DNA of 64,000 nt, taken from the NCBI RefSeq assembly GCF_000159695.1, contig NZ_CM000955.1, positions 1,274,264 to 1,338,263 of the forward strand. Direction: 5' to 3'. Every line of letters starts with the position of its first letter. The first letter of the stretch is position 1. This DNA comes from Finegoldia magna ATCC 53516 (GTDB lineage Bacteria > Bacillota > Clostridia > Tissierellales > Peptoniphilaceae). Positions 2,143-64,000 of the stretch are shown here, one piece after another. The position numbers and the translations under genes are program-made. Below the pieces are notes generated by a model. It did no database searches, was not told the DNA's origin, and worked only from the letters and a program-made list of their open reading frames with translations.

Positions 2143-2255
2143 GATTGCAACAAAACGCAGGACATTTACACTTGATATGGGAATCACTAAAAATAGACAG
2201 CCGCTCTTTTGTTTGAACAATGCAATAAAATGAGATTATAATGACAAAGTTTGTG

Positions 2256-2284
2256 TTGAATTTGAAAATTGAATTTTATATAAT
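2256..2284 (+). promoter_or_regulatory. Promoter of the two-component genes
   Basis: TTGAAT and TATAAT boxes are separated by 17 bases, about 70 bases before the regulator start. Boxes were identified by eye. Confidence 0.5.
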
Positions 2285-2351
2285 AAAAAAAGAATGACAA
2301 TGAATCAATAGTGCAAATTGAGTACATAAAAAACTTATGTTAGGAGGCACA

Positions 2352-3080
2352 ATGAATATAGCTATCTGTGATGATGATCTCAAACATATAAATTTAATAG
2401 AAGATATGATATATGATTTATCTCAAAAATTAGATAATTTTAAACCTGATATAGATGCTTATTTAAGTGGCGAAGAACTACTTAGATTGATAGATGTGAA
2501 AGATTTTCCATCTATTTTATTTATAGATGTTGAAATGCCAGGACTTAATGGAATTCAAACGGCTAGAGAACTCAGAAAGCTCTCCGAACAAGTTTTGATA
2601 ATTTATGTTACAAGTTACGAAACTTATACCTTGGAATCTTTTGAAGTTAGACCTTTTCGATATTTGTTAAAGCCTATTGATACAAAAAAGTTTGCCAGAG
2701 CTTTTTATGATGCTATTGAATACATAAATAATTCCAATAGTTATGTATTTTTTAAAAAAGGCAAGGATCACATTCAAATAGATAGTTCGTCTATAATATC
2801 TATATTCTCGGAATCGGGAAGAAAATTAAGGGTGAAAACTAACAATGAGTTAGATGACGAAGTATTTTATGGGAAAATCAAGAATATAGAAAAAGAACTC
2901 AATCCTTTAAGTTTTGTTAAGATAAACAGCGGAACCATTATCAACTTAAAAAGAGTCAAGATTTTAAACGCTCATGAGGTAATAATGATAGATGGTTCAA
3001 TATTACCCATTAGTAAAAACAGAAAGAAAAGTGTCATTGATTTGTATTCTAGTTTTATTTCTAAAGAGGTCGGAATATGA
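2352..3080 (+). CDS. LytTR-type response regulator (AgrA-like)
   Basis: This 242-residue regulator has an N-terminal receiver domain: acidic pair in ICDDD, phospho-acceptor Asp in LFIDVEMPG, switch residues in YVTSYE, and Lys in LLKP. It has a C-terminal LytTR DNA-binding domain (about residues 135-240; FVKINSGTIINLKRV). LytTR regulators bind pairs of 9-bp direct repeats. The chosen start has AGGAGG five bases upstream; a start 15 bases earlier would overlap that site. It overlaps the kinase gene by four bases (ATGA). Its likely target is the direct-repeat promoter at 4420-4484 driving the peptide genes; that link is inferred from position. Confidence 0.9.
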   Translation: MNIAICDDDLKHINLIEDMIYDLSQKLDNFKPDIDAYLSGEELLRLIDVKDFPSILFIDVEMPGLNGIQTARELRKLSEQVLIIYVTSYETYTLESFEVRPFRYLLKPIDTKKFARAFYDAIEYINNSNSYVFFKKGKDHIQIDSSSIISIFSESGRKLRVKTNNELDDEVFYGKIKNIEKELNPLSFVKINSGTIINLKRVKILNAHEVIMIDGSILPISKNRKKSVIDLYSSFISKEVGI

Positions 3081-4357
3081 GTATCACAGCTATTAAAATT
3101 CTGGTTACATTTTTAGTTATCGTGCTTTTGCAAACGACTATTTCTTATGTTTTTTTTAATGAATATTTTATCAATATAAGGAAAAATAGTATTCTATTCT
3201 TCAGCTTTTTTATTATCATACTTCTGGATAAATTCATGGGAAATTCTACTTTTCTTAAATTGTCGTTTTTAACTGTCGCAAATCTGGCTATCTCATTTAT
3301 GTTTTTTGATGGGACAGCTTACAAGAAAGTATTTTATGTCATCAGTTTTATTTGTAATTTCACTTTATACGAAGTTGTTGGACTAAGCTTTTCGTATTCA
3401 AGCATATACAAGGATTTTTTTGGCATAGATTTTTCTTTTTATTACATAATTTTGTATTTAGCTTTTTTGATATTGTTTTATGTGTACATAAAATTCATAA
3501 AAGATGGTAGTTACGAAAATTTTGACTTAGACAATACTGAATATTTGATTCTTACTATTGTATTTCTTTGTAACCTTGTAATGCTCATGGTACTAGGAGA
3601 TTATTCTTATAAAGTAAGTATTGTTTTAATATTCGTTGCGATTCTTTCGGATTTCTGTTATGTTTTTTTTCACAGGAAAATCAAAGAAAAGAATTTGATT
3701 CTGTCTAAATATCAAGTTGTAGATGAACAAAACAAAATCCTAAAAAGAGAGATAGAAAATGAGGCAAATTTTAGGAGATTAAAACATGACTTAAAAAACA
3801 CTTTGCTTCAGGTTGATATGAATATCAAAAGTGGTGACACTAATCTTGCTATAGCTCAAATTGAAAATATAGTCGGACAAAAATTGGATTATCCAACTTA
3901 TCTTAGTGGATTGACAGAGATTGACTATCTATTAAGCATGAAAATTCAAAAAATGGAACAACTAAATATAAAACATAAAATATCACTTCAAATCCCAAAG
4001 GACTTAAATATCAAGGAAATCTCAATAGATTTGTCTGCGATAATAGGAAATTTAATAGATAATGCTATTGAGGCGGTTGAACGACTTGGAGATGTTGACT
4101 CACCGATTATAATAAAACTGATATATCGAGATGAAAAAATATATGTATATACTGAAAATCCTTCTGAAAAACTTGAAGAAGATTTCTCGAAAGACTTTAT
4201 AAAGTCTTCAAAATCGGATAGATTTGGAGTTGGGATAAAGAGTATAAAGTTGCGTTTAGAAAAATTAAAAGGATTTTATAATTTTAAATATGAAGATGGC
4301 TTTTTTAAAGTTTTGATTATTGTACCTTGTAAACTGCAAAATCAAAGCTCTTTATAA
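3077..4357 (+). CDS. GHKL sensor histidine kinase (AgrC-like)
   Basis: The 426-residue kinase has about six N-terminal membrane helices (residues 1-200), then a coiled linker and a cytoplasmic kinase part. The phosphorylated His lies in RLKHDLKN, the N box is IIGNLIDNAIEAV and the G box is FGVGIKS. This is the HPK10 type used by Gram-positive peptide quorum-sensing and bacteriocin systems. It is translationally coupled to the response regulator. No agrB or agrD gene is next to it, so its ligand is unknown. The modified peptide made from 7203-7483 is a plausible inducer, by analogy with self-induced bacteriocins. Confidence 0.88.
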   Translation: MSITAIKILVTFLVIVLLQTTISYVFFNEYFINIRKNSILFFSFFIIILLDKFMGNSTFLKLSFLTVANLAISFMFFDGTAYKKVFYVISFICNFTLYEVVGLSFSYSSIYKDFFGIDFSFYYIILYLAFLILFYVYIKFIKDGSYENFDLDNTEYLILTIVFLCNLVMLMVLGDYSYKVSIVLIFVAILSDFCYVFFHRKIKEKNLILSKYQVVDEQNKILKREIENEANFRRLKHDLKNTLLQVDMNIKSGDTNLAIAQIENIVGQKLDYPTYLSGLTEIDYLLSMKIQKMEQLNIKHKISLQIPKDLNIKEISIDLSAIIGNLIDNAIEAVERLGDVDSPIIIKLIYRDEKIYVYTENPSEKLEEDFSKDFIKSSKSDRFGVGIKSIKLRLEKLKGFYNFKYEDGFFKVLIIVPCKLQNQSSL

Positions 4358-4373
4358 AAATTTGAAGAATTAA

Positions 4374-4424
4374 ACGAGTATTGAAAATTAGATTAAAAAC
4401 TAATTTTTGATGCTCGTTTTTTAA
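4374..4424 (+). terminator. Terminator after the sensor kinase
   Basis: A long stem (ACGAGTATTGAAAATTAG against CTAATTTTTGATGCTCGT, with some G-T pairs) runs into TTTTTT. Its T tract overlaps the first direct repeat of the next promoter. Confidence 0.8.
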
Positions 4425-4484
4425 TACAACTTTTTAGGCTATTTAATACATTTTGAAAATCCAATTAAAAATCCATTGTATAAT
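4420..4484 (+). promoter_or_regulatory. Putative LytTR-regulated promoter of the peptide operon
   Basis: Two exact copies of TTTAATACA lie at 4420-4428 and 4442-4450, 22 bases apart from start to start. Just after them come a TTGAAA box (4453-4458), a long 20-base spacer and TATAAT (4479-4484). LytTR regulators typically bind 9-bp direct repeats about two helix turns apart, next to promoters with poor spacing that need activation. The repeat does not match the published Agr/Com consensus closely, so the assignment rests on architecture and on the regulator gene next door. Confidence 0.6.
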
Positions 4485-4509
4485 CAATTTGAAAGTAGAG
4501 GTGAGGTGT

Positions 4510-5133
4510 ATGGAGATAAAAAAACGTAGAAATTATGATTTTAGTTTTTTAAATGTAAATGAGAAAAATCCTTTAGTAATAGCGATGTCGTTGGTAGTCA
4601 TCAATTTGTTATCACTGTTAACGCTTATAATTCTTTTATCGTATGTAAAAGTATCTAATCCGTTTTTAATGTTGACAGTACCAACTGTGATTTCATTTAT
4701 TACACTTCCAAAATTATTATTAAAATGTCTCAATATTGAAGATAATTTGGATGTATTCAGATATTTAAAAACTTCAAGTGTAATTTTTATATCTTTTGTA
4801 GCCGTCTATCTTTTAATATTTAGATCGAAACTTGATATGACATTTGTGGGGTTTTGGATAGTACATTATCTAATTGTTGCCACAGGCGAGGAGTACATAT
4901 ACAGGCATCTTTTAATTAGTCTGTTATCTAAAAAAATGAGTATCATTATTTCTTGTATTATATCAAGTATTGTTTTCGCATTTATCCTTCATAATAACGA
5001 AGATTTTGTAACAAACTTAGTAATCAGACTACCTTTGGCGCTTGTATTATCGGGAATTTATGTCAAAACAAAAAGTTTAAGTTTACCTATTGTCATACAC
5101 GCAATCTACAATTTATTAGTAATGATTGTTTAG
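4510..5133 (+). CDS. CPBP-family intramembrane metalloprotease
   Basis: The 207-residue membrane protein has about six helices and all three CPBP (Abi) motifs: EEYIYR, FxxxH in FAFILH, and HxxxN in HAIYN. The catalytic residues are therefore intact. CPBP proteins are related to CAAX prenyl proteases and often occur in bacteriocin loci, where they serve in self-immunity or leader removal. The start at 4510 sits behind GAGGTGAGGTG; an earlier in-frame ATG at 4453 lies within the promoter. It is the first gene of the operon. The exporter at 7565 has no C39 peptidase domain, which makes this protease the best candidate for cutting the precursor. Confidence 0.85.
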   Translation: MEIKKRRNYDFSFLNVNEKNPLVIAMSLVVINLLSLLTLIILLSYVKVSNPFLMLTVPTVISFITLPKLLLKCLNIEDNLDVFRYLKTSSVIFISFVAVYLLIFRSKLDMTFVGFWIVHYLIVATGEEYIYRHLLISLLSKKMSIIISCIISSIVFAFILHNNEDFVTNLVIRLPLALVLSGIYVKTKSLSLPIVIHAIYNLLVMIV

Positions 5134-5141
5134 GAGGGTTT

Positions 5142-5585
5142 ATGAAAAAAAATATTGTAGCTTTAGTAATATCTTTAGTAGCGTTGAGCTTTCTGATAGT
5201 AAAGGTATCAACTACTGTAAATTCATTAAATGTTGTGACGTTTTTAGTTTTTGGTGCTATTTTACCGGCGTTGGTTTCATCAATAATGGGCTGTTCACTT
5301 ATAAATATTTTAAAAATTCAAAAAGATAAAATAAGAATAATAGGCTCTGGAATTTTTGCCCTTATATATTCAGTTTGTTATTTTATTTTTATAAAATTGA
5401 TCAATTTGGATTTTACAGCTATAGCTAGAAATTCTCAGAATTTATCTAACAATTCTTCAATACAAATTAACTCTGTAAGCAGTCAGTCGGTACTGACAAC
5501 GGGTTTGATTAATTTCTTCTTGGTATTTTCTTTAATAGTAATATTTTCAAAAATAAAAGAAAAAGCAGGTGAAAGATATGTATAA
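5142..5585 (+). CDS. Small membrane protein of the peptide locus
   Basis: This 147-residue protein has about four hydrophobic segments and no recognised motif. It starts nine bases after the protease stop, behind AGGAGG, and its end overlaps the start of the maturase gene. Translational coupling on both sides marks it as part of the operon. Small polytopic proteins in such loci are often immunity factors, but nothing in the sequence proves that here. Confidence 0.7.
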   Translation: MKKNIVALVISLVALSFLIVKVSTTVNSLNVVTFLVFGAILPALVSSIMGCSLINILKIQKDKIRIIGSGIFALIYSVCYFIFIKLINLDFTAIARNSQNLSNNSSIQINSVSSQSVLTTGLINFFLVFSLIVIFSKIKEKAGERYV

Positions 5586-6777
5586 AAATCCTAATGTTAA
5601 AACAGAAAAATTTAACGGAGCAAACCTTCTGATTAATACAGCAAACTCAGCTGTATTAGGGCTTGACGATAAAACTTATGAAGAATATCTGGAAATTTTA
5701 CAAGATAAAAATGTCAATGAGGATTTGTATGAGTTTTTAGTAGAAAATGAATTCATTAAAAAAGTTAATGAGTTTACAAAAGGTGTCAATGTTAAAAATG
5801 CTTACATACACATAACAGACAGATGTAATTTGAAGTGTAAGGGATGTTATTCAGAAGATGAGAGATGTGATAAGAAAGAGCTATCATTTAATGAGTTAAC
5901 AAAAGTGGTTGGTAATTTAAAGCCTTTAAATCTAGAAAATATAATTATATCTGGCGGAGAGCCAATGATACGAAAAGATTTGGATAAAATACTAGAACTT
6001 ATCAAAACAGAACTAAAACCAGATAATTTAATTGTAATAACTAATGGTACTGTACATAATTTTGATATGTTAGAAAACATTGCACCATACGTTGATGTTC
6101 TTTCGGTGTCTTTGGATACTTACAGCTCAGATTGTAAAGCGTTCCTAAGAGAAGACAAAATTTTTGATAGAATAATGGAATTTATAGACAGGGCAAAAGA
6201 ATTAGACATTACTTTATCCATACTGCCAACTATTAATCACAAAAACGTGGATTACATTAATGAGTACACGAAGCTTTCGAAAAAACTAGGCACAAATATA
6301 AGTTTTAGTTTATTTACAGTAAAACCGGATGCTGAAAACAGAGAATTTGTTTTGACTACAGATGATCTCAAAAAGATCGTCGACTACTATAGAGTTAACG
6401 AAATAGAAGTGGAAGATGTTCCTCTTAAAGATTGCCTTGAAGGAAAATGCAATTGTGGTACAGGAGAACAACTGATTTCTGTAGGTACTGATGGATCCTT
6501 GTATCCTTGTCATATGCTAATGGAGGATGAATTCAAAATGGGAAATTTGTTGGAAAAAGACGTGATGAGTTTGCTTGTACATAATGCCAAAAGAAAATAC
6601 AAAGTAGAAGTAGACGATATGGATGGCTGCAAAGAATGTGAGTTCAAATATTTATGTGGTGGTGGATGTCGAGCAAGAGCTTACTTGTATACTGACAAAA
6701 TAACGAGTAAGGATCCGTTCTGCCCAATGTACTATGGGTTTTTTGATGAAGTTATGAATAATTTAATAGCAGGATAG
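5578..6777 (+). CDS. Radical SAM/SPASM peptide maturase
   Basis: The 399-residue enzyme has three parts. Residues 1-75 resemble a PqqD-like recognition domain (LLINTANSAVLGLD, then LYEFLVENEFIKK). The radical SAM core carries the CNLKCKGC cluster motif and SGGEP. The C-terminal SPASM region has Cys-rich segments GKCNCGTG, LYPCHM, CKECEFKYLCGGGC and DPFC for auxiliary [4Fe-4S] clusters. SPASM enzymes of this type install thioether or carbon-carbon links in peptides. The ATG at 5578 has AGGTG six bases upstream; a GTG three codons earlier is possible. Two cysteine-bearing precursor genes follow, so they are the likely substrate. Whether the product is a sactipeptide, ranthipeptide or another class cannot be told from sequence. 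Confidence 0.9.
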   Translation: MYKNPNVKTEKFNGANLLINTANSAVLGLDDKTYEEYLEILQDKNVNEDLYEFLVENEFIKKVNEFTKGVNVKNAYIHITDRCNLKCKGCYSEDERCDKKELSFNELTKVVGNLKPLNLENIIISGGEPMIRKDLDKILELIKTELKPDNLIVITNGTVHNFDMLENIAPYVDVLSVSLDTYSSDCKAFLREDKIFDRIMEFIDRAKELDITLSILPTINHKNVDYINEYTKLSKKLGTNISFSLFTVKPDAENREFVLTTDDLKKIVDYYRVNEIEVEDVPLKDCLEGKCNCGTGEQLISVGTDGSLYPCHMLMEDEFKMGNLLEKDVMSLLVHNAKRKYKVEVDDMDGCKECEFKYLCGGGCRARAYLYTDKITSKDPFCPMYYGFFDEVMNNLIAG

Positions 6778-6781
6778 ATTA

Positions 6782-7156
6782 ATGGACAAATATATTGCTT
6801 CTTCAATAGAAGAAATTTGTAATGAAAATAAAAATATAATGACAAGATTTAATGCGAAAAATTTGTTTAAACACAATGGGGAGTTTGTTTTGTCAGATAA
6901 ATACATAGAGTTTAAAGGGTATAAAACAATAAAATTTGATGAAATTGAAGATATATCCTTGGGAAATGATGATGTGGTATCTTCGGTGAATTTTGCCACT
7001 CAAAATAGGATGGTTTTTGGGAAATCAGCCAGACCAATAAGACTATTACTGAAAAATGAAGAGATAATATATTTTTATGTGAACTGGAATATATTAACAG
7101 GACTTAGCTCCAACAAAAAAATTTATGACATTTTAAATGATCATATAAAAAATTAA
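6782..7156 (+). CDS. Uncharacterised soluble protein of the peptide locus
   Basis: The 124-residue protein has no signal peptide or membrane helix and I do not recognise a family. The middle part alternates short beta-like stretches (FVLSDKYIEFKGYKTIKFDEIEDISLG, then IRLLLKNEEIIYFYVNW), which resembles a PH-like fold. It lies four bases after the maturase and 46 bases before the first precursor, so it probably belongs to the operon. It could be a partner of the maturase or part of self-protection; neither is shown. Confidence 0.7.
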   Translation: MDKYIASSIEEICNENKNIMTRFNAKNLFKHNGEFVLSDKYIEFKGYKTIKFDEIEDISLGNDDVVSSVNFATQNRMVFGKSARPIRLLLKNEEIIYFYVNWNILTGLSSNKKIYDILNDHIKN

Positions 7157-7202
7157 AGCTGGATTTTTCTAGAGAATCCAAAGGTTGAAGGAGGTGACAG
7201 AT

Positions 7203-7304
7203 ATGTTATTCAAATTTTTGAAGAAAAACAACGCAGGTTGTGCATCAGTAGGAATGGTAGTTTGTGGATCTATTGGATATTCAGGAAAAAAATGGTCAGC
7301 ATAA
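7203..7304 (+). CDS. Putative RiPP precursor peptide, copy 1 (33 aa)
   Basis: The peptide starts MLFKFLKKNN, has cysteines at 13 and 21, a Gly/Ser/Val-rich stretch between and after them, and ends GKKWSA. An ideal AAGGAGGTGA ribosome site lies 7 bases upstream. Placement between a radical SAM maturase and an exporter supports a precursor role. The two Cys residues are natural partners for thioether formation, and the Lys-Lys-Trp end could be another modification site. There is no double-Gly leader cleavage site, and the leader would be very short (about 10-12 residues). The ORF is far below usual gene-calling limits. Confidence 0.8.
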   Translation: MLFKFLKKNNAGCASVGMVVCGSIGYSGKKWSA

Positions 7305-7381
7305 TTGATCTGATTATTTTGAAAAACAACAAAACGGTAAACAAAAGAATTAATTATTAGAGTTATCATAAGGAGATAAAA

Positions 7382-7483
7382 ATGTTATTTAAATTTTTGA
7401 AGAAAAACAACGCAGGTTGTGCATCAGTAGGAATGGTAGTTTGTGGTTCTATCGGATACTCAGGAAAAAAATGGTCAGCGTAA
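7382..7483 (+). CDS. Putative RiPP precursor peptide, copy 2 (33 aa)
   Basis: This gene encodes exactly the same 33 residues as copy 1 but differs at several third-codon positions (for example TTC/TTT for Phe3, GGA/GGT for Gly22, ATT/ATC for Ile24). Synonymous change with no amino-acid change indicates purifying selection on the peptide, or recurrent conversion with selection. An AAGGAG site lies upstream. The 77-base spacer between copies is unlike the coding part, so the duplication is confined to the gene. A hairpin follows at 7517. Confidence 0.8.
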   Translation: MLFKFLKKNNAGCASVGMVVCGSIGYSGKKWSA

Positions 7484-7516
7484 TAATACTTAACTAATAT
7501 TAAAAGATTCATATTT

Positions 7517-7550
7517 AAATTTGGTGTCTGATTAAAGATGCCAAATTTTT
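7517..7550 (+). terminator. Attenuator-type hairpin between precursors and exporter
   Basis: AAATTTGGTGTCT pairs with AGATGCCAAATTT (two G-T pairs) around a five-base loop and ends in TTTTTAT. It sits just before the exporter ribosome site. Hairpins in this position commonly give more precursor mRNA than transporter mRNA. Confidence 0.65.
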
Positions 7551-7564
7551 ATATGGAGGTGTAT

Positions 7565-9247
7565 ATGAAAAAATATCTTAACTCACAAAAATTAAGGATA
7601 TTGTATATTGTAATACTTTCTATAGTGACAAGCTTATGTAGTATTTTTATCGTGAGAAACATCCAAAAGATTGTGGATAGCATGATAAACAGAGACTCTC
7701 TGACATTTAAACAAAGTATTTGGTTTTTGGTAATATCATTTATCATAAACTTCATATTAACTTATTTGTTGGTTATATCCAACGCAAATTTGAAAAAGAA
7801 TATACATAAATCAATAAAAAGAGATATCATAAAAAGCTTTTTTAAAATGGAACATAAAGATTTCATGAAAACTTCTTCTTCTCAAAAGATAAACGTATTT
7901 GAAACTGATTTGAATATAATAGACAATCAATATTTCGAAAACATACTAAACCTTTTGAAAAATAGCTTATTGATATGCTTTTGTTTGGTTTATTTGATGA
8001 AATTAAACATAAAAATGGCATTTATTATGATTTTTTGTTCATTTGTAATATTATTATTGCCAGTTTTTCTGGGTAAAAACATAGATGAATTAAGCGCGAA
8101 GTATTCAAAAAATAAAGATAAATTTCTGGAAAAGATTAAAGATGTTTTTGAATCAATGGATTTAATACATACTTATGGAATTGAATCAAAAATTCTAAAA
8201 CAATTTGATACGTCTTTGGAAGAATTAGAAAGGTCATTATACTTATTCAACACTAGCTTAGGACTTTATTCACAGATAATTGGTCTAGGCAACTACATCA
8301 TAATAGCCATCTCATTTTCTCTTGGAGGATATTTTGTAATAAATGGGAAATTAACAGTAGGTGGCCTTATTGCGATAACACAAATCATAAATATGATGCT
8401 GGGTCCGATAGGAGAATCTACAACAGCAATTATGGAAATTAAAGGAGCCAGTAAAATAAAGGATAAAATAACAAATTTACTATCCTACACAAAGACAAAT
8501 GACTTTTATATTACAGAAAATGCCTTTGACTCTATAAAACTAGATAATGTGTGCTATAAAAATGATGATTCTGAGTTTTCGTTGAATAATATAAATCTCA
8601 AAATTGAGAAAAATAAAAAATATGTAATACTTGGTCATAGCGGTAGTGGTAAATCGACATTGCTAAAAATTTTGGCAAATATTTTATCAAATACTTCTGG
8701 GAATCTGTACCTAAATGAAAGTGAATACTCAATTCATAAGAACATATCGCAGATGATTTCTTTTGTATCCCAAGAAACATTTATATTCAACGATACATTG
8801 ATAAACAACATTACCTTATACAACGAGTATTCTGATGAAGAAATAAATAAAGCAATAGAATTCTCCTTACTCGAGAATTTAAAGGATAGAAAGATACAAC
8901 AGAATTCAAACTTAAAGGATACTTTGTCAGGTGGCGAAAGGAAGAAAATTGGACTTGCAAGAGCGATTCTTAACGATACAGATGTAATTCTATTAGATGA
9001 ATTGAACTCGTCTCTTGATTCTACTAGTTCAAAAATTTTAGAGGATAGGATTTTTGATTTGGAAGACAAAACCATCGTCATGGTTACTCACAAGATTAAT
9101 TATCATAATTTAGTTAAAGCAGATGAAATAATCTGCATGGATGATGGAGAGATTGTAGAAAACGGAAACTTGGAAGAATTATTGGAAAAGAAGGGCTATT
9201 TTTATAGGAATTTTGGAGAATTATATGGAAAATATTTTAGAGATTAA
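7565..9247 (+). CDS. Peptide exporter, ABC transporter with fused membrane and ATPase domains
   Basis: This 560-residue protein has an N-terminal six-helix membrane domain (about 1-300) and a C-terminal ATPase: Walker A GHSGSGKST, signature LSGGERKKIGLA, Walker B VILLDE and the H-loop His in MVTHK. It is a half-transporter that should act as a dimer. It has no N-terminal C39 peptidase, unlike many bacteriocin exporters, so precursor cleavage must be done elsewhere. The start at 7565 follows GGAGGTGT; an earlier ATG at 7538 lies within the attenuator hairpin. Export of the modified peptide is the inferred role. Confidence 0.87.
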   Translation: MKKYLNSQKLRILYIVILSIVTSLCSIFIVRNIQKIVDSMINRDSLTFKQSIWFLVISFIINFILTYLLVISNANLKKNIHKSIKRDIIKSFFKMEHKDFMKTSSSQKINVFETDLNIIDNQYFENILNLLKNSLLICFCLVYLMKLNIKMAFIMIFCSFVILLLPVFLGKNIDELSAKYSKNKDKFLEKIKDVFESMDLIHTYGIESKILKQFDTSLEELERSLYLFNTSLGLYSQIIGLGNYIIIAISFSLGGYFVINGKLTVGGLIAITQIINMMLGPIGESTTAIMEIKGASKIKDKITNLLSYTKTNDFYITENAFDSIKLDNVCYKNDDSEFSLNNINLKIEKNKKYVILGHSGSGKSTLLKILANILSNTSGNLYLNESEYSIHKNISQMISFVSQETFIFNDTLINNITLYNEYSDEEINKAIEFSLLENLKDRKIQQNSNLKDTLSGGERKKIGLARAILNDTDVILLDELNSSLDSTSSKILEDRIFDLEDKTIVMVTHKINYHNLVKADEIICMDDGEIVENGNLEELLEKKGYFYRNFGELYGKYFRD

Positions 9248-10109
9248 TAATTTAAGGAAGTCTTACAAAGATGTGTTGATTTTAGATGATGTGAATTTTA
9301 CTCTTAAACCTAAAGAGATTGTGGGTTTAGTAGGGGCAAATGGAACAGGAAAAACAACTTTGATGAAGACGATATTGGGATTTATTTTTAAAGATAGTGG
9401 CGAGGTAAAATTTTTAAACGATCAATCTTATAGCAATAAACATGAATTAATGAGTAAGATAGGATTTTTGGTCGACACAAGACTTTATGAGAATTTAACA
9501 GCAGAGGAAAATATTCAAATTCAAATTCTTTACAGAAATTTGAAAAACGAAAAAGAAACCTGGGATAGAGCCAACTATTTATTAGAACTTGTGGGGCTAA
9601 AAGGTGTCAAGAAAAAGGTGTCTGATTATTCGTTTGGGATGAAACAAAGACTAAGTCTAACTTTGGCGCTACTTGGAGATGTGAAGTTACTTATATTAGA
9701 TGAGCCCTTTGTGGGACTTGATCCGAATGGTATAAATGGAGTTAAGAAATTTATTAAGGAGATTGTCGAAAAAGAAGAGATTGCACTTCTGATTTCTTCG
9801 CATCAAATGAAGGAAATAGACGAGTTGTGTGATAGGTTTTTATTCTTAGAAAACAAAAAAATAAGAAATCACAACTTAAACAAAGAAAAAATGTATGTAA
9901 TAGAAATTTCAAACAAAACACCAAACTTAGAAATAAATGATAAGAATATTGTCTTAAAAGAAAACAAAATACTTGTAAGTGATAAAAATCAACTAAACAA
10001 AACCTTTAAGTTATTGGCGGACAAAAATATTGAGATAAAGGACATTTTAATTGAATCAGATTCTATAAACAAGTTATTTGATGGGGTGGAAAATGAAAAA
10101 AATAGTTAA
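9225..10109 (+). CDS. ABC transporter ATPase (immunity-type)
   Basis: The 294-residue ATPase has Walker A GANGTGKT, signature YSFGMKQRLSL, Walker B LLILDEPFVGLDP and an H-loop in ISSHQMKE. It matches the CcmA/LanF class that works with ABC-2 permeases. It overlaps the exporter by 23 bases; ATG 9225 follows GGAGAA, and a TTG four codons earlier is less likely. The last 17 bases overlap the permease gene. In bacteriocin loci such ATPase-permease pairs usually remove the peptide from the producer's own membrane. Confidence 0.85.
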   Translation: MENILEINNLRKSYKDVLILDDVNFTLKPKEIVGLVGANGTGKTTLMKTILGFIFKDSGEVKFLNDQSYSNKHELMSKIGFLVDTRLYENLTAEENIQIQILYRNLKNEKETWDRANYLLELVGLKGVKKKVSDYSFGMKQRLSLTLALLGDVKLLILDEPFVGLDPNGINGVKKFIKEIVEKEEIALLISSHQMKEIDELCDRFLFLENKKIRNHNLNKEKMYVIEISNKTPNLEINDKNIVLKENKILVSDKNQLNKTFKLLADKNIEIKDILIESDSINKLFDGVENEKNS

Positions 10110-10842
10110 AGCAGAATTATTAAAGCTTAAAAAGAGTAGGGCTTTCTTGTTGATTTTATTATTGAATCTTGTTTCGATATTGTATGGAGCTGGTGTTAAA
10201 TTTGGATGGAGTTTTGTGGCTTTTAAAGGTCAATTTGACATATGCAGATACGTATTTTCAATATGGCAATTGTATTTCATACTGGGAGTTCCAATGATAA
10301 TTTTGATGTATGCTGGATCGAAAATTTTAGGAGATGAAATTCAAAAAGGTCAAATCATTCTGGAAGTAGCTCCTGTAGCAGACAGAAAAAAACTTATCTG
10401 CGGGAAATTTATATCCATGATTTGCATGACTCTTTTTTATTTCATCACGAATATAGCATTCAATGTTTTAGCTTATTTAATTTTTGTGAAGGGGACAAAT
10501 TATGCTGTAAGTGGAAATTTGTTTACTAAAGATAACTTCGAGATTTTAGTTCAGATATTGTTTGGGTTTTTAGAAGTTTATTTTATGGTAATCTCGGCGA
10601 TGTTAGTTTCCATCGATAAAGGAGCAATAGTCGGAACATTAAGTTCGATGGGGTTATATGTTGTTACATCGCTATTAACCAGAGCGAAAACAATAGACAA
10701 ATTTATCATAGGATATTTTAATTTAAAATCAGATAATATCATAAATCCAGAAACTATAATCATTCAATTAGTCGTATTCGCAGTATGTATAAGTTTAATA
10801 ATTTATGTTTCTGTTCGAAAATTTAGACAGAAAGATTTATAG
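10093..10842 (+). CDS. ABC-2 type permease (immunity-type)
   Basis: The 249-residue protein has six hydrophobic segments. It begins MKKIVKAELLKLKKSRAFLL, the usual amphipathic start of LanE/LanG-type ABC-2 permeases. The chosen ATG follows GGGGTGG; an ATG 15 bases earlier is possible. It pairs with the preceding ATPase and ends the operon at the terminator at 10865. Self-immunity is inferred from context, and the substrate is unproven. Confidence 0.8.
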   Translation: MKKIVKAELLKLKKSRAFLLILLLNLVSILYGAGVKFGWSFVAFKGQFDICRYVFSIWQLYFILGVPMIILMYAGSKILGDEIQKGQIILEVAPVADRKKLICGKFISMICMTLFYFITNIAFNVLAYLIFVKGTNYAVSGNLFTKDNFEILVQILFGFLEVYFMVISAMLVSIDKGAIVGTLSSMGLYVVTSLLTRAKTIDKFIIGYFNLKSDNIINPETIIIQLVVFAVCISLIIYVSVRKFRQKDL

Positions 10843-10864
10843 TAAATAATTAACAACAAAGTAG

Positions 10865-10911
10865 TCCATTGCATTAAATTTTATTTAAAGATTTATGCGA
10901 TGGATTTTTTG
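10865..10911 (+). terminator. Terminator of the peptide operon
   Basis: TCCATTGCATTAAA pairs with TTTATGCGATGGA and is followed by TTTTTT. Confidence 0.75.
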
Positions 10912-11029
10912 ATGAGTGATGTTGTTTTTTTGATTGGAGCTGGGGTGTGTAGTAAGAGGTGACTTCAGAAAACAAAAGCAGAAAACTAATCTTTGCAAGA
11001 AATTTGATATTACAAAACAAAAAACATCG

Positions 11030-11235
11030 TAAAGGAGCGAATCATTCGAAAAAAATTGTTTTAAATTCAATCGAAGAAATCTGTCCAAAATTTGACCGCG
11101 TAAGCGAAGCGCGCTTCAAATTTTAGGATTTCGAGATTAGAATTTATCAATTTTTGTAGACAGATGAGCGATTTACGAGTTTTTGTAGTTTTCTTCGTTC
11201 GTAGTCTAGATGTTCGTGCAAACTGGTTTTCTGCG
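11030..11235 (-). repeat. Dispersed hairpin repeat R1, divergent copy
   Basis: Read on the minus strand, this gene-free stretch has the R1 layout: a TTTGCACGAACATCTAGACTA-like start (around 11203-11222), a second CATCTGTCTACAAAAA, then two inverted arms around a CGCTTCGC-like tip and a closing AATGATTCG. It is more diverged than the other copies. The flanks 10912-11029 and 11236-11330 show nothing else I can name. Confidence 0.5.
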
Positions 11236-11369
11236 TTGTGAAGCAATCTTCGATAATGAATCACTCGTTTCGCACATCAAAGCCTCAAATTAATACTAGA
11301 AAAATTTCACAATGATGGTATAATTAAATAATTGGGTATAAGGAGTGGATTTTTATTTTTTTAGTTACG

Positions 11370-12287
11370 TTGCAGCAGATTTTGATTATGTTTGTGTTCA
11401 TGGCTATGGGATATATTTTTGCAAGAACTGGGTTTTTCAGCAGAGAAACCATTCGTGAAATGACAGGTTTTGTAATGTATGTTGTGGGATCAAGTGTTAT
11501 TATCAACGCGTTTAATAGACCCGTTACGCCAGTGCTATTGAACAATTTTGGTATGACTGCCTTCGCTGCGGTGGTTTTGATGGGTTCATCTATTTTGATT
11601 TCTCATTTTTTGTTCAAATTCGATAGATTTTCTAAAAACGAAAATTTAAGTACGTACAAGTTTGCATCTGTGTATAGCAATTGTGGTTTCATGGGGATTC
11701 CTTTGATTGAAGCATTGCTTGGAGCTGATGGAACTTTTTTCGCTATTCCTTACTTGGCGGTGTTCAATATTTTGTTGTGGAGTCACGGGATTGGTTTGTA
11801 CGAAATGACTGGAAACGGGAAAATTCAATGGAATAAGGTTGTGAAAAATCCTTGTATTATTTCGTCTGTTTTAGGATTTGTTTTGTTTTTCTTCGGGGTT
11901 ATTTATAAAATGCCGAATGTTGTGACAAAACCTGTTTTTTATTTGGCTAGTATGAATACTCCTCTTAGTATGATAATTATCGGTGCAAATTTCGTGAGTA
12001 TTACAGAGCCTTTTCACAAAGACAAAATGGCGTGGGAAGTTTCTTTTATCAGAAATATTTTGTTTCCTTTGATTTATATCGCAATTTTGTTAATTATTCC
12101 GATGAATACAGATTCAAAGATTGCAACGTTGGCGATGGCATCAGCTCCGATTGCAGGAGTGAGTGTGCTTTTCTGTTTAATGTTTAATAAATCTACGGAT
12201 TTTCCATCAAGGGCTTTGTGTTTGTCGACGATATTTTCGGTGGTGACTTTGCCGGTAATAATTTTGATTGGTAGTTTAATCCTTTAA
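11370..12287 (+). CDS. AEC-family transporter (auxin efflux carrier family)
   Basis: The 305-residue protein has about ten membrane helices. The N-terminal GYIFARTGFFSRETI and the YSNCGFMGIPLIEALLG segment are characteristic of AEC carriers, which in bacteria export or exchange organic acids such as malate or lactate. The start is uncertain. The strong AAGGAGTG site (11340-11347) is 23 bases from the TTG at 11370 but 7 bases from an in-frame ATT at 11355. A start at 11355 would give M(F)LVTLQQ, the usual length for the family. The substrate cannot be inferred from context. Confidence 0.8.
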   Translation: MQQILIMFVFMAMGYIFARTGFFSRETIREMTGFVMYVVGSSVIINAFNRPVTPVLLNNFGMTAFAAVVLMGSSILISHFLFKFDRFSKNENLSTYKFASVYSNCGFMGIPLIEALLGADGTFFAIPYLAVFNILLWSHGIGLYEMTGNGKIQWNKVVKNPCIISSVLGFVLFFFGVIYKMPNVVTKPVFYLASMNTPLSMIIIGANFVSITEPFHKDKMAWEVSFIRNILFPLIYIAILLIIPMNTDSKIATLAMASAPIAGVSVLFCLMFNKSTDFPSRALCLSTIFSVVTLPVIILIGSLIL

Positions 12288-12344
12288 ATTGGCAAATTTT
12301 TTTGAAACGCATATATAATCTAATGTAAATATATGGTAAAATAA

Positions 12345-15344: not shown

Positions 15345-15620
15345 CCATCATGCACGAATATCTAGACTACGCGCAACAATCGCGCACGAATATCTTGGTG
15401 AAAATTTAATAATCTTATTCAGACACAACACAGATCAAGCATTTTGCACGAATATCTAGACTACAAAAATAAATAAATTCTAAGCTTGTGAACCTAAAAT
15501 TGTGAACTCGTGCTACGCACTCAGACAGCACAATTTTTTAACGGTTCACTTCACTTGAATTTATGATTATTTTCTCCGTATGATATTCTTAGCAAAAAGG
15601 CTTGACTGTTTACATAAATT
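15345..15620 (+). repeat. Dispersed repeat R1: fragment plus full copy
   Basis: Two GCACGAATATCT motifs lie in a fragment at 15350-15420. A full R1 copy follows at about 15435-15620: TTTGCACGAATATCT, AAATAAATTC, GTGAACC-type left arm, a tip around CGTGCTACGCAC, AACGGTTCAC right arm, TATGATATTCTTAGCAAA end. It is about 95% identical by eye to the copy at 16940-17140. Apart from a terminator-like hairpin at 15717 I see no other feature in 15300-15928. Confidence 0.8.
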
Positions 15621-20179: not shown

Positions 20180-20425
20180 TAGCTTAGGATATCATACGGA
20201 AAAAATTGTGTTAATTTCAAATTGAAGAACACCGTTAAAAAATCGGACCGCCCGAGCGAAAGCGAGGCTTGCGATTTTAGGTGTTCGAAATTATGAAATT
20301 GCCAATTTTTGTAGTCAGATATCCGTGCTATAAAGTTTGATGTTAACAGTTGAACAACTTAGCATAAGAATAAATACTTCTTAGAATGCGAAAAGGTAGA
20401 TATCCGTGCTATAAAGTTTGGTGTC
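20180..20425 (-). repeat. Dispersed repeat R1, minus-strand copy
   Basis: On the minus strand the stretch 20185-20330 has the R1 order: GCACGGATATCTGACTACAAAAA, CTAAAATCGCAAG left arm, GCTTTCGCTC tip, GATTTTTTAACGG right arm, CCGTATGATATCCTAAG end. A second piece carrying GATATCCGTGCTATAAAG recurs at about 20399-20416, so the first ~27 bases of the element are present twice. Confidence 0.65.

Positions 20426-63491: not shown

Positions 63492-64000
<509 letters not shown>

Follow-up and report, generated by a model that had tools for sequence, protein, structure and literature searches.

A probable self-regulated radical SAM peptide operon with precursors of an unnamed family in Finegoldia magna ATCC 53516

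Results

Composition of the peptide locus

We analyzed a window of 64,000 nucleotides from Finegoldia magna ATCC 53516 (contig NZ_CM000955.1, positions 1,274,264 to 1,338,263 of the forward strand), in which a reading made from the sequence alone had described a locus for a ribosomally synthesized and post-translationally modified peptide (RiPP) with fourteen features running in one direction. That number was reached as 11 genes, all on the + strand between positions 2352 and 10842, plus one promoter and two strong hairpins, and the cluster is real and complete. Each named part (a regulator pair, a promoter, a CPBP protease, a small membrane protein, a radical SAM/SPASM maturase, a 124-residue protein, two precursors, an exporter and an ATP-binding cassette (ABC) pair) was located on that strand, as listed in Table 1. 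A locus from Eubacteriales (L014) has the same gene order but a single precursor, with 25-50% identity per protein. Because similar peptide genes recur beside relatives of the maturase and L014 keeps the gene order, the cluster is not a product of chance.

Table 1. Features of the peptide cluster, with positions numbered from the first letter of the window
Feature	Position	Strand	Evidence
LytTR-type (AgrA-like) response regulator	2352..3080	+	PF00072 51.2 bits (cut-off 30.2), PF04397 38.6 (22.6)
GHKL sensor histidine kinase (AgrC-like)	3077..4357	+	PF14501 53.2 bits (cut-off 22)
Terminator-like hairpin and T run 3' of kinase gene	4372..4419	+	-21.5 kcal/mol, z -7.6, 0/200 shuffles equally stable
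Activator-type promoter	4422..4484	+	TAATACA half-sites 4422-4428 and 4444-4450 (22 bp apart), 28 bp, -10 TATAAT 4479-4484
CPBP-family intramembrane protease (proposed leader peptidase)	4510..5133	+	PF02517 57 bits (cut-off 22.4)
147-residue membrane protein	5142..5585	+	Relatives in L014, L016, L018, L067
Radical SAM/SPASM peptide maturase, 399 residues	5578..6777	+	PF04055, PF13186 above Pfam cut-offs
124-residue PH-like protein	6782..7156	+	Weak PH-fold matches of model; relatives' names
Precursor peptide copy 1, 33 residues	7203..7304	+	Shine-Dalgarno-like sequence; motif family beside maturase relatives
Precursor peptide copy 2, same 33 residues	7382..7483	+	Shine-Dalgarno-like sequence; synonymous differences only
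Terminator/attenuator-like hairpin 3' of precursors	7510..7555	+	-20.3 kcal/mol, z -6.0, 0/200 shuffles equally stable
ABC exporter, membrane and ATPase domains fused	7565..9247	+	PF00664 and PF00005 above cut-off
ABC ATPase, lantibiotic-protection type	9225..10109	+	PF00005 above cut-off; best NCBIfam match TIGR03740
ABC-2 permease partner	10093..10842	+	PF12730 31.8 bits (cut-off 27)

The maturase resembles CteB

The maturase contains the CX3CX2C motif (C83, C87 and C90) and the full SPASM set of seven cysteines (C293, C311, C351, C354, C360, C364 and C382), which places it among the radical SAM/SPASM enzymes. In both fold and profile, its closest solved relative is the RiPP maturase CteB, which aligns over nearly its full length, including the N-terminal domain. 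Residues 1 to about 66 resemble a RiPP recognition element (RRE): the predicted structure has a beta-beta-beta-alpha-alpha arrangement that aligns with CteB from residue 6, and this model is consistent with the recognition-like N terminus proposed earlier, although neither a PqqD nor an RRE family is among the five Pfam matches of the protein. An identity as an anaerobic sulfatase maturase was rejected at 77.7 bits against a cut-off of 349.45 for TIGR03942, though the core fold matches one closely; thus, the model score does not bear out the non-peptide, sulfatase-type enzyme that the sequence-only reading had named as grounds for refutation. The StsB-family sactipeptide maturase model NF045574 was not reached either (110.5 bits against 625; the best among the matches listed for ten relatives is 137.2), and the WgkB-type model scores 101 bits. 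No curated maturase family attained its cut-off among the best 25 of 85 models for the window maturase, or, for the ten relatives, among models at E 1e-30 or better.

A short precursor gene is linked to the maturase

Both precursor genes specify an identical 33-residue peptide, MLFKFLKKNNAGCASVGMVVCGSIGYSGKKWSA; five codons differ between them, all synonymously. Genome contigs were scanned using the maturase alignment; 229 stretches fit the pattern, 159 of these encode relatives, and the best 80 were retained. Beside the relatives, in both Bacillota and Coriobacteriia, we observed small open reading frames (ORFs) with a Met-Leu-Phe start (Met-Leu-Lys in some Enterococcus and Streptococcus) and a Cys-x3-Gly motif. 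An ORF was counted as a precursor when it had a ribosome site, began with ATG followed by a Leu and a Phe or Lys codon, encoded 18-60 residues with at least one Cys, and lay close to the maturase. Such ORFs (56 in all) were found in 45 of 59 loci, namely the window and 58 others, and the opposite-strand control gave one. The other 22 loci yielded a single ORF, which lacks the Cys-x3-Gly motif, and again one on the opposite strand. Loci L001-L013 stand outside this count; a profile search of them matched L001 only, which is a repeat of L032. Thus, the loss of precursors where the maturase is kept, which would have spoken against a peptide locus, was not seen. Of the 14 loci without a nearby precursor, four have one farther off (L023, L061, L067 and L070) and five (L015, L018, L045, L051 and L052) have a contig end close by on the side in question.

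When 22 precursors are aligned, M1, L2, C13, G17 and G25 are invariant and C21 is nearly so. Ten precursors gave no NCBIfam match at E 10, and their only Pfam matches were two at chance level and below cut-off, zf-C2HC5 for L033 (14.2 bits against 25.8) and Kazal_3 for L022 (12.8 against 26.2); against these two libraries, the earlier view that the precursor belongs to no named class holds. A Lachnospiraceae locus (L036, 9263-9730) encodes four different precursors in tandem, as if for a peptide cocktail.

A tree was built from 75 of the 81 maturases, leaving out L051, L055, L060, L065, L067 and L070 as partial, frame-shifted or near-duplicates; L023 and L061 were labeled on it through precursors beyond the near-maturase distance. 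One branch of 52 rows, with a Shimodaira-Hasegawa-like approximate likelihood ratio (SH-aLRT) support of 99, holds all 45 rows labeled with a Met-Leu-Phe or Met-Leu-Lys peptide, together with four that are cut, two with relaxed precursors and one without; none of the 45 falls outside. The label requires 7 changes on the tree (3 without the four cut loci), compared with 23.7 in shuffles, none of 500 being as low. Thus, as expected for a radical SAM RiPP (RaS-RiPP), a conserved short precursor gene is linked to the maturase across its relatives in both the locus counts and the tree. The window maturase groups with those of L014 and L016 (Kandleria vitulina) with a support of 98.

Spacing of the precursor cysteines

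Among 54 distinct precursors with 96 cysteines, Gly occupies position +4 for 82 of them, although the search required no Gly. Since Gly has an alpha carbon alone, a Gly acceptor would allow only an alpha-carbon link, that is, a sactionine. This spacing suggests that the products probably carry Cys-to-Gly(+4) alpha-thioether rings. Small unnested rings have precedent in streptosactin, whose links are given as Cys25-Ser28 and Cys31-Gly34 in the accessible text of PMC8172795 (another sentence there has Cys15), and in the rings with one intervening residue formed by QMP-type maturases, according to the available part of PMC13361665.

Promoter, hairpins and two-component pair

Two TAATACA half-sites separated by 15 bases lie 28 bases before a TATAAT box, and this promoter is the only perfect match in the 64 kb. 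We searched for TAMTACA-N15-TAMTACA-N28-TATAMT on both strands of 1,400,403 bases (the window and the loci, some of which overlap). With at most one mismatch there are four sites, in the window, L014, L019 and L020, each directly upstream of the operon, and the same geometry precedes the L017 and L021 operons with two and three mismatches, respectively. Up to three mismatches give 12 hits, six before operons of this kind and six elsewhere, compared with 0-8 hits when the second gap is altered and 2-7 when the first is. A Streptococcus salivarius plasmid (L113) has a perfect copy upstream of its Met-Leu-Lys precursor. Loci L014, L017, L019, L020 and L021 also encode regulators 40-50% identical to the LytTR regulator of the window, and the kinase counterpart in L014 has a weak full-length match to the staphylococcal AgrC model (24 bits, where the cut-off is 500). 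The strong hairpin that follows the kinase gene points to separate transcription of the regulator pair and the biosynthetic genes; a small hairpin 5' of precursor 1 does not stand out from shuffled sequence (z -0.35).

The cluster thus has the LytTR regulator and GHKL kinase of an Agr quorum system, and lacks the AgrB protease and AgrD propeptide in the products scanned: no AgrB family appears in the Pfam lists for ten cluster products, and neither the precursors nor six further small ORFs matched any NCBIfam model. The earlier description of the locus as having its own quorum-type regulation is therefore sound in part. A receptor, a regulator and a promoter are present and the AgrA/AgrC-like label was right, while quorum sensing itself is conjectural.

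Export, immunity and accessory proteins

No peptidase domain is found among the best 25 of 26 Pfam matches of the ABC exporter. The separate ABC ATPase has the lantibiotic-protection model as its best NCBIfam match, at 167.1 bits, below the cut-off of 309.75. For the 147-residue membrane protein no model is significant, the match to MsaC being sub-threshold (12.1 bits against 45). The 124-residue protein has no Pfam or NCBIfam match. At E 0.01 or better it has 118 relatives, the majority more than 90% identical; named ones include Finegoldia, Blautia, Peptoniphilus and Gottfriedia, and two are named by their source as YokE-like PH or GRAM domain. Its model (pLDDT 78) has PH domains as its best fold matches, all weak (E 0.013 or worse).

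In the Bacillota branch to which the window belongs (support 91, not starred), 20 of 22 rows have a CPBP protease homolog in the locus, and the two exceptions, L016 and L018, are on contigs cut near the maturase. Near the maturase, chiefly in Coriobacteriia, BLAST with queries from such loci found a DUF2975-like membrane protein in 25 of the 59 loci and an HTH_26 protein in 27 (the bacilli L025 and L033 among them), each in none of the 22 others. A compact Coriobacteriia cassette (L040, 7947-10128; also L054, L073 and others) consists of the maturase, a precursor of 21-25 residues usually with one Cys, the sub-threshold DUF2975-like protein and an HTH_26 regulator.

Distribution and surroundings of the cluster

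Members of the family occur in Kandleria, Enterococcus, Streptococcus, Staphylococcus, Paenibacillus, Neobacillus, Thermoanaerobacter, Collinsella, Olsenella and others. Maturases 97-99% identical to that of the window are found in other records, one of them named F. magna. The sequence-only reading had proposed looking for the cluster in other Finegoldia genomes; in G001 and G002, the only same-genus genomes among the 61 searched, the cluster is absent and the genes that flank it adjoin. A maturase match at 1e-20 was found in seven of the 61, neither of these two included. At 28.5%, the G+C content of the cluster lies under the 32.0-36.2% range of 45 equally long stretches from elsewhere in the window, which overlap one another. 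In two Enterococcus species, 10.5 kb around the cluster is 99.9% identical. Pfam showed no transposase or integrase family in the products of the cluster, its two flanks have no long repeat in common (the best is 21 bases at 86%), and viral contigs gave seven weak matches.

In the S. salivarius plasmid copy of the cluster (L113, 6995-7825 and 5366-6918), the maturase gene is interrupted and its annotated frame is short, but the plasmid retains the precursor, the promoter, the exporter and the regulator genes; the maturase frame adjoins an IS1595-like transposase and a predicted lincosamide-resistance gene. Just downstream of the F. magna cluster lies a dispersed intergenic repeat (10971-11240), with partial copies near 15424-15506 and 20191-20320. 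With 10860-12300 as the flank query, there were 47 matches in G001 and 37 in G002; in each genome, a single match fell outside this repeat and its pieces. The window also holds a Cys-rich ORF of 142 residues at 34-462 that by eye resembles a 2-hydroxyacyl-CoA dehydratase-type component, and the start of a 16S rRNA gene at its end (63492-64000).

Discussion

These genes are best read as a RiPP locus under its own two-component control, as had been proposed. We consider it probable that the locus is a self-regulated RaS-RiPP operon of an unnamed family, which we call the MLF family after the first three precursor residues, and that its product is bacteriocin-like and carries Cys-Gly(+4) rings; the ring chemistry, signal and activity are predictions from sequence. 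The complete set of parts, the gene order shared with L014, the precursor linkage, the tree, the Gly at Cys+4, the likeness to CteB, the promoter geometry and the hairpins all argue for this interpretation. In the proposed pathway, the GHKL kinase would sense an extracellular peptide, most simply the product itself, and the LytTR regulator would bind the tandem TAATACA repeats seen before the -10 box and activate transcription from about position 4490. The stem-loop at 7510-7555 may keep precursor message in excess over that of the transporters. The RRE-like domain of the maturase would hold a leader of about 12 residues beginning with MLF, and the enzyme would link each Cys to the Gly four residues on (C13-G17 and C21-G25), forming five-residue rings with a total change of -4 Da; the calculated monoisotopic mass of the full precursor is 3480.754 Da, which two links would lower to 3476.723 Da. 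The CPBP protease may then trim the leader, the ABC exporter may secrete the product, and the lantibiotic-protection-type ABC pair may protect the producer. The secreted peptide would then be small, cationic and bacteriocin-like, with a narrow spectrum, and might double as the inducer of its own operon.

Several observations weigh against this interpretation. The core of a sulfatase maturase fits the maturase model about as well as CteB does (Z 26.6 versus 27.2), CteB makes gamma-thioethers and is not known to make sactionines, and 13 of the 96 cysteines have Gly at +5. Two rings are not the rule throughout the family: the second Cys is absent from the streptococcal precursors of L019, L020 and L113, and only one Cys is encoded by 16 of the 56 precursor ORFs close to the maturase, the Collinsella/Olsenella-type branch accounting for 13 of these. 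Among the 14 misses, L029, L062, L065 and L066 have precursors that do not start with MLF, L041 has no recognizable precursor and is an unexplained miss, and L029 falls outside the 52-row branch. The division into 59 and 22 loci was drawn after the precursor results had been seen and was not blind, the tree alone being independent of it; that tree was made by a quick method, and several of its outside rows are long branches. Likewise, the promoter motif was derived from the same loci in which it is counted, and L113 is 91-94% identical to L019 over shared stretches, so it is not an independent lineage and is a weak check of the promoter. Finally, no signal gene was found in the cluster among the ten products, the precursors and the six small ORFs scanned, and self-induction is a guess.

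The chemistry might differ within the same RiPP family. The thioether could run to the residue at Cys+2, giving very small suisactin-like rings, with the +4 Gly kept for a turn. Such rings would follow the one-intervening-residue pattern of the QMP-type maturases (PMC13361665, from the part available), and position +2 is Ser for 51 of the 96 cysteines; however, it may also be D, T, V, R, N, E, K, I or P, whereas +4 shows the much steadier Gly described above, and we regard this arrangement as unlikely. We give slightly less credence to another radical link (a beta-thioether, an ether or a carbon-carbon bond such as Lys-Trp in GKKWSA) accompanied by a disulfide between the cysteines. The WgkB-type and StsB-type scores leave the chemistry unfixed by sequence and several precursors have a C-terminal Trp, but Trp is absent from the L017, L019, L020 and L021 precursors, and all 22 aligned precursors keep the first Cys and its +4 Gly.

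Use of the peptide mainly as a pheromone, and not as a bacteriocin, is possible but somewhat doubtful. In that case the ABC pair would be an additional transporter or a pump linked to the receptor, and the receptor would be the AgrAC-like pair (in Coriobacteriia, the membrane protein and HTH_26). LytTR/GHKL pairs do accompany the peptide in the window, L014, L017 and L019-L021, and the DUF2975-like and HTH_26 proteins occur near the maturase in part of the 59 loci and in none of the 22 others, but the DUF2975 label falls below the Pfam cut-off in all three proteins that match it, and the similarity of the ATPase to lantibiotic-protection ABC ATPases points to self-immunity in the Bacillota form. 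That the cluster is a decayed or silent remnant yielding no product in this strain seems very improbable to us: it is AT-rich and absent from G001 and G002, but all frames are open, the promoter is intact, the precursor copies differ only synonymously, and the near-identical maturases in other records include the one named F. magna.

Known systems resemble the MLF operon in part. CteB and the SCIFF (thermocellin) ranthipeptides share with it the closest solved maturase, but the SCIFF precursor has six Cys and the one here two, and the SCIFF maturase model TIGR03974 is not reached (75 bits against 425). Agr-type regulation is alike in its LytTR regulator, GHKL kinase and tandem repeat site before a -10 box, and differs in that neither AgrB nor AgrD is recognized among the scanned cluster products. 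The precursor of sporulation killing factor (skf) is unlike that of the window in length and motif, and its regulation also differs; the window precursor has no NCBIfam match. In the accessible parts of PMC8172795 and PMC13361665, streptosactin (GGG-type) likewise has a short precursor, two Cys giving small unnested rings (predicted here) and a radical SAM/SPASM enzyme, but it is Rgg/SHP-controlled, where the regulators here are a LytTR response regulator and a GHKL kinase, and its links differ from the Cys-x3-Gly spacing; the model of its exporter GggC (NF050039) matches the window exporter weakly, at 129.9 bits against 750. Suisactin (QMP) and the NxxC streptococcal RaS-RiPPs also have small thioether rings made by radical SAM enzymes, as predicted here, but belong to Rgg-linked subfamilies with other precursor motifs (PMC13361665, available part). 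Other accounts were set aside: the LPP family is different, 'radical SAM' occurring 0 times in the available text of PMC13381572; the sactipeptide cores listed in the accessible part of PMC8792950 differ from the window precursor; no pathway matches in the text of section 4 of PMC9062424, which places further pathways in Figs 3 and S2; and PMC12300986 (subtilosin-like), PMC13289728 and PMC12710340, each seen in part, were weighed as prior accounts. No RiPP paper was found by title with the precursor motif letters, and no account of the MLF family, in the open-licence literature searched (CC0, CC BY or CC BY-SA), which omits most subscription journals. Within that scope, the family is a variant among RaS-RiPPs rather than a new kind.

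Widespread as the family is, curated models recognize none of the ten precursors scanned. A search rule pairing PF04055 with TIGR01716, as stated in the accessible part of PMC13289728 for RaS-RiPPs, would miss LytTR-controlled clusters such as this one.

Formyl-Met-Leu-Phe is the classic ligand of host formyl-peptide receptors, and if the N terminus were exported intact, the MLF start would also be such a ligand. Paenibacillus and Neobacillus keep MLF too, so a host-receptor role is unlikely to be the reason for its conservation. More tentatively, and with some doubt, MLF peptides could be a RiPP family that follows a distinct rule for its rings (Cys to Gly at +4) and has a minimal leader recognized by its first residues, acting as self-sensed signals in two phyla, with AgrAC-like pairs and immunity transporters in Bacillota and a DUF2975-like membrane protein and HTH_26 in Coriobacteriia. 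In F. magna, the peptide most likely serves the bacterium as a weapon or a signal whose synthesis follows when the cells detect it. MLF peptides are short enough for synthesis, so their chemistry, activity and self-induction are directly testable.

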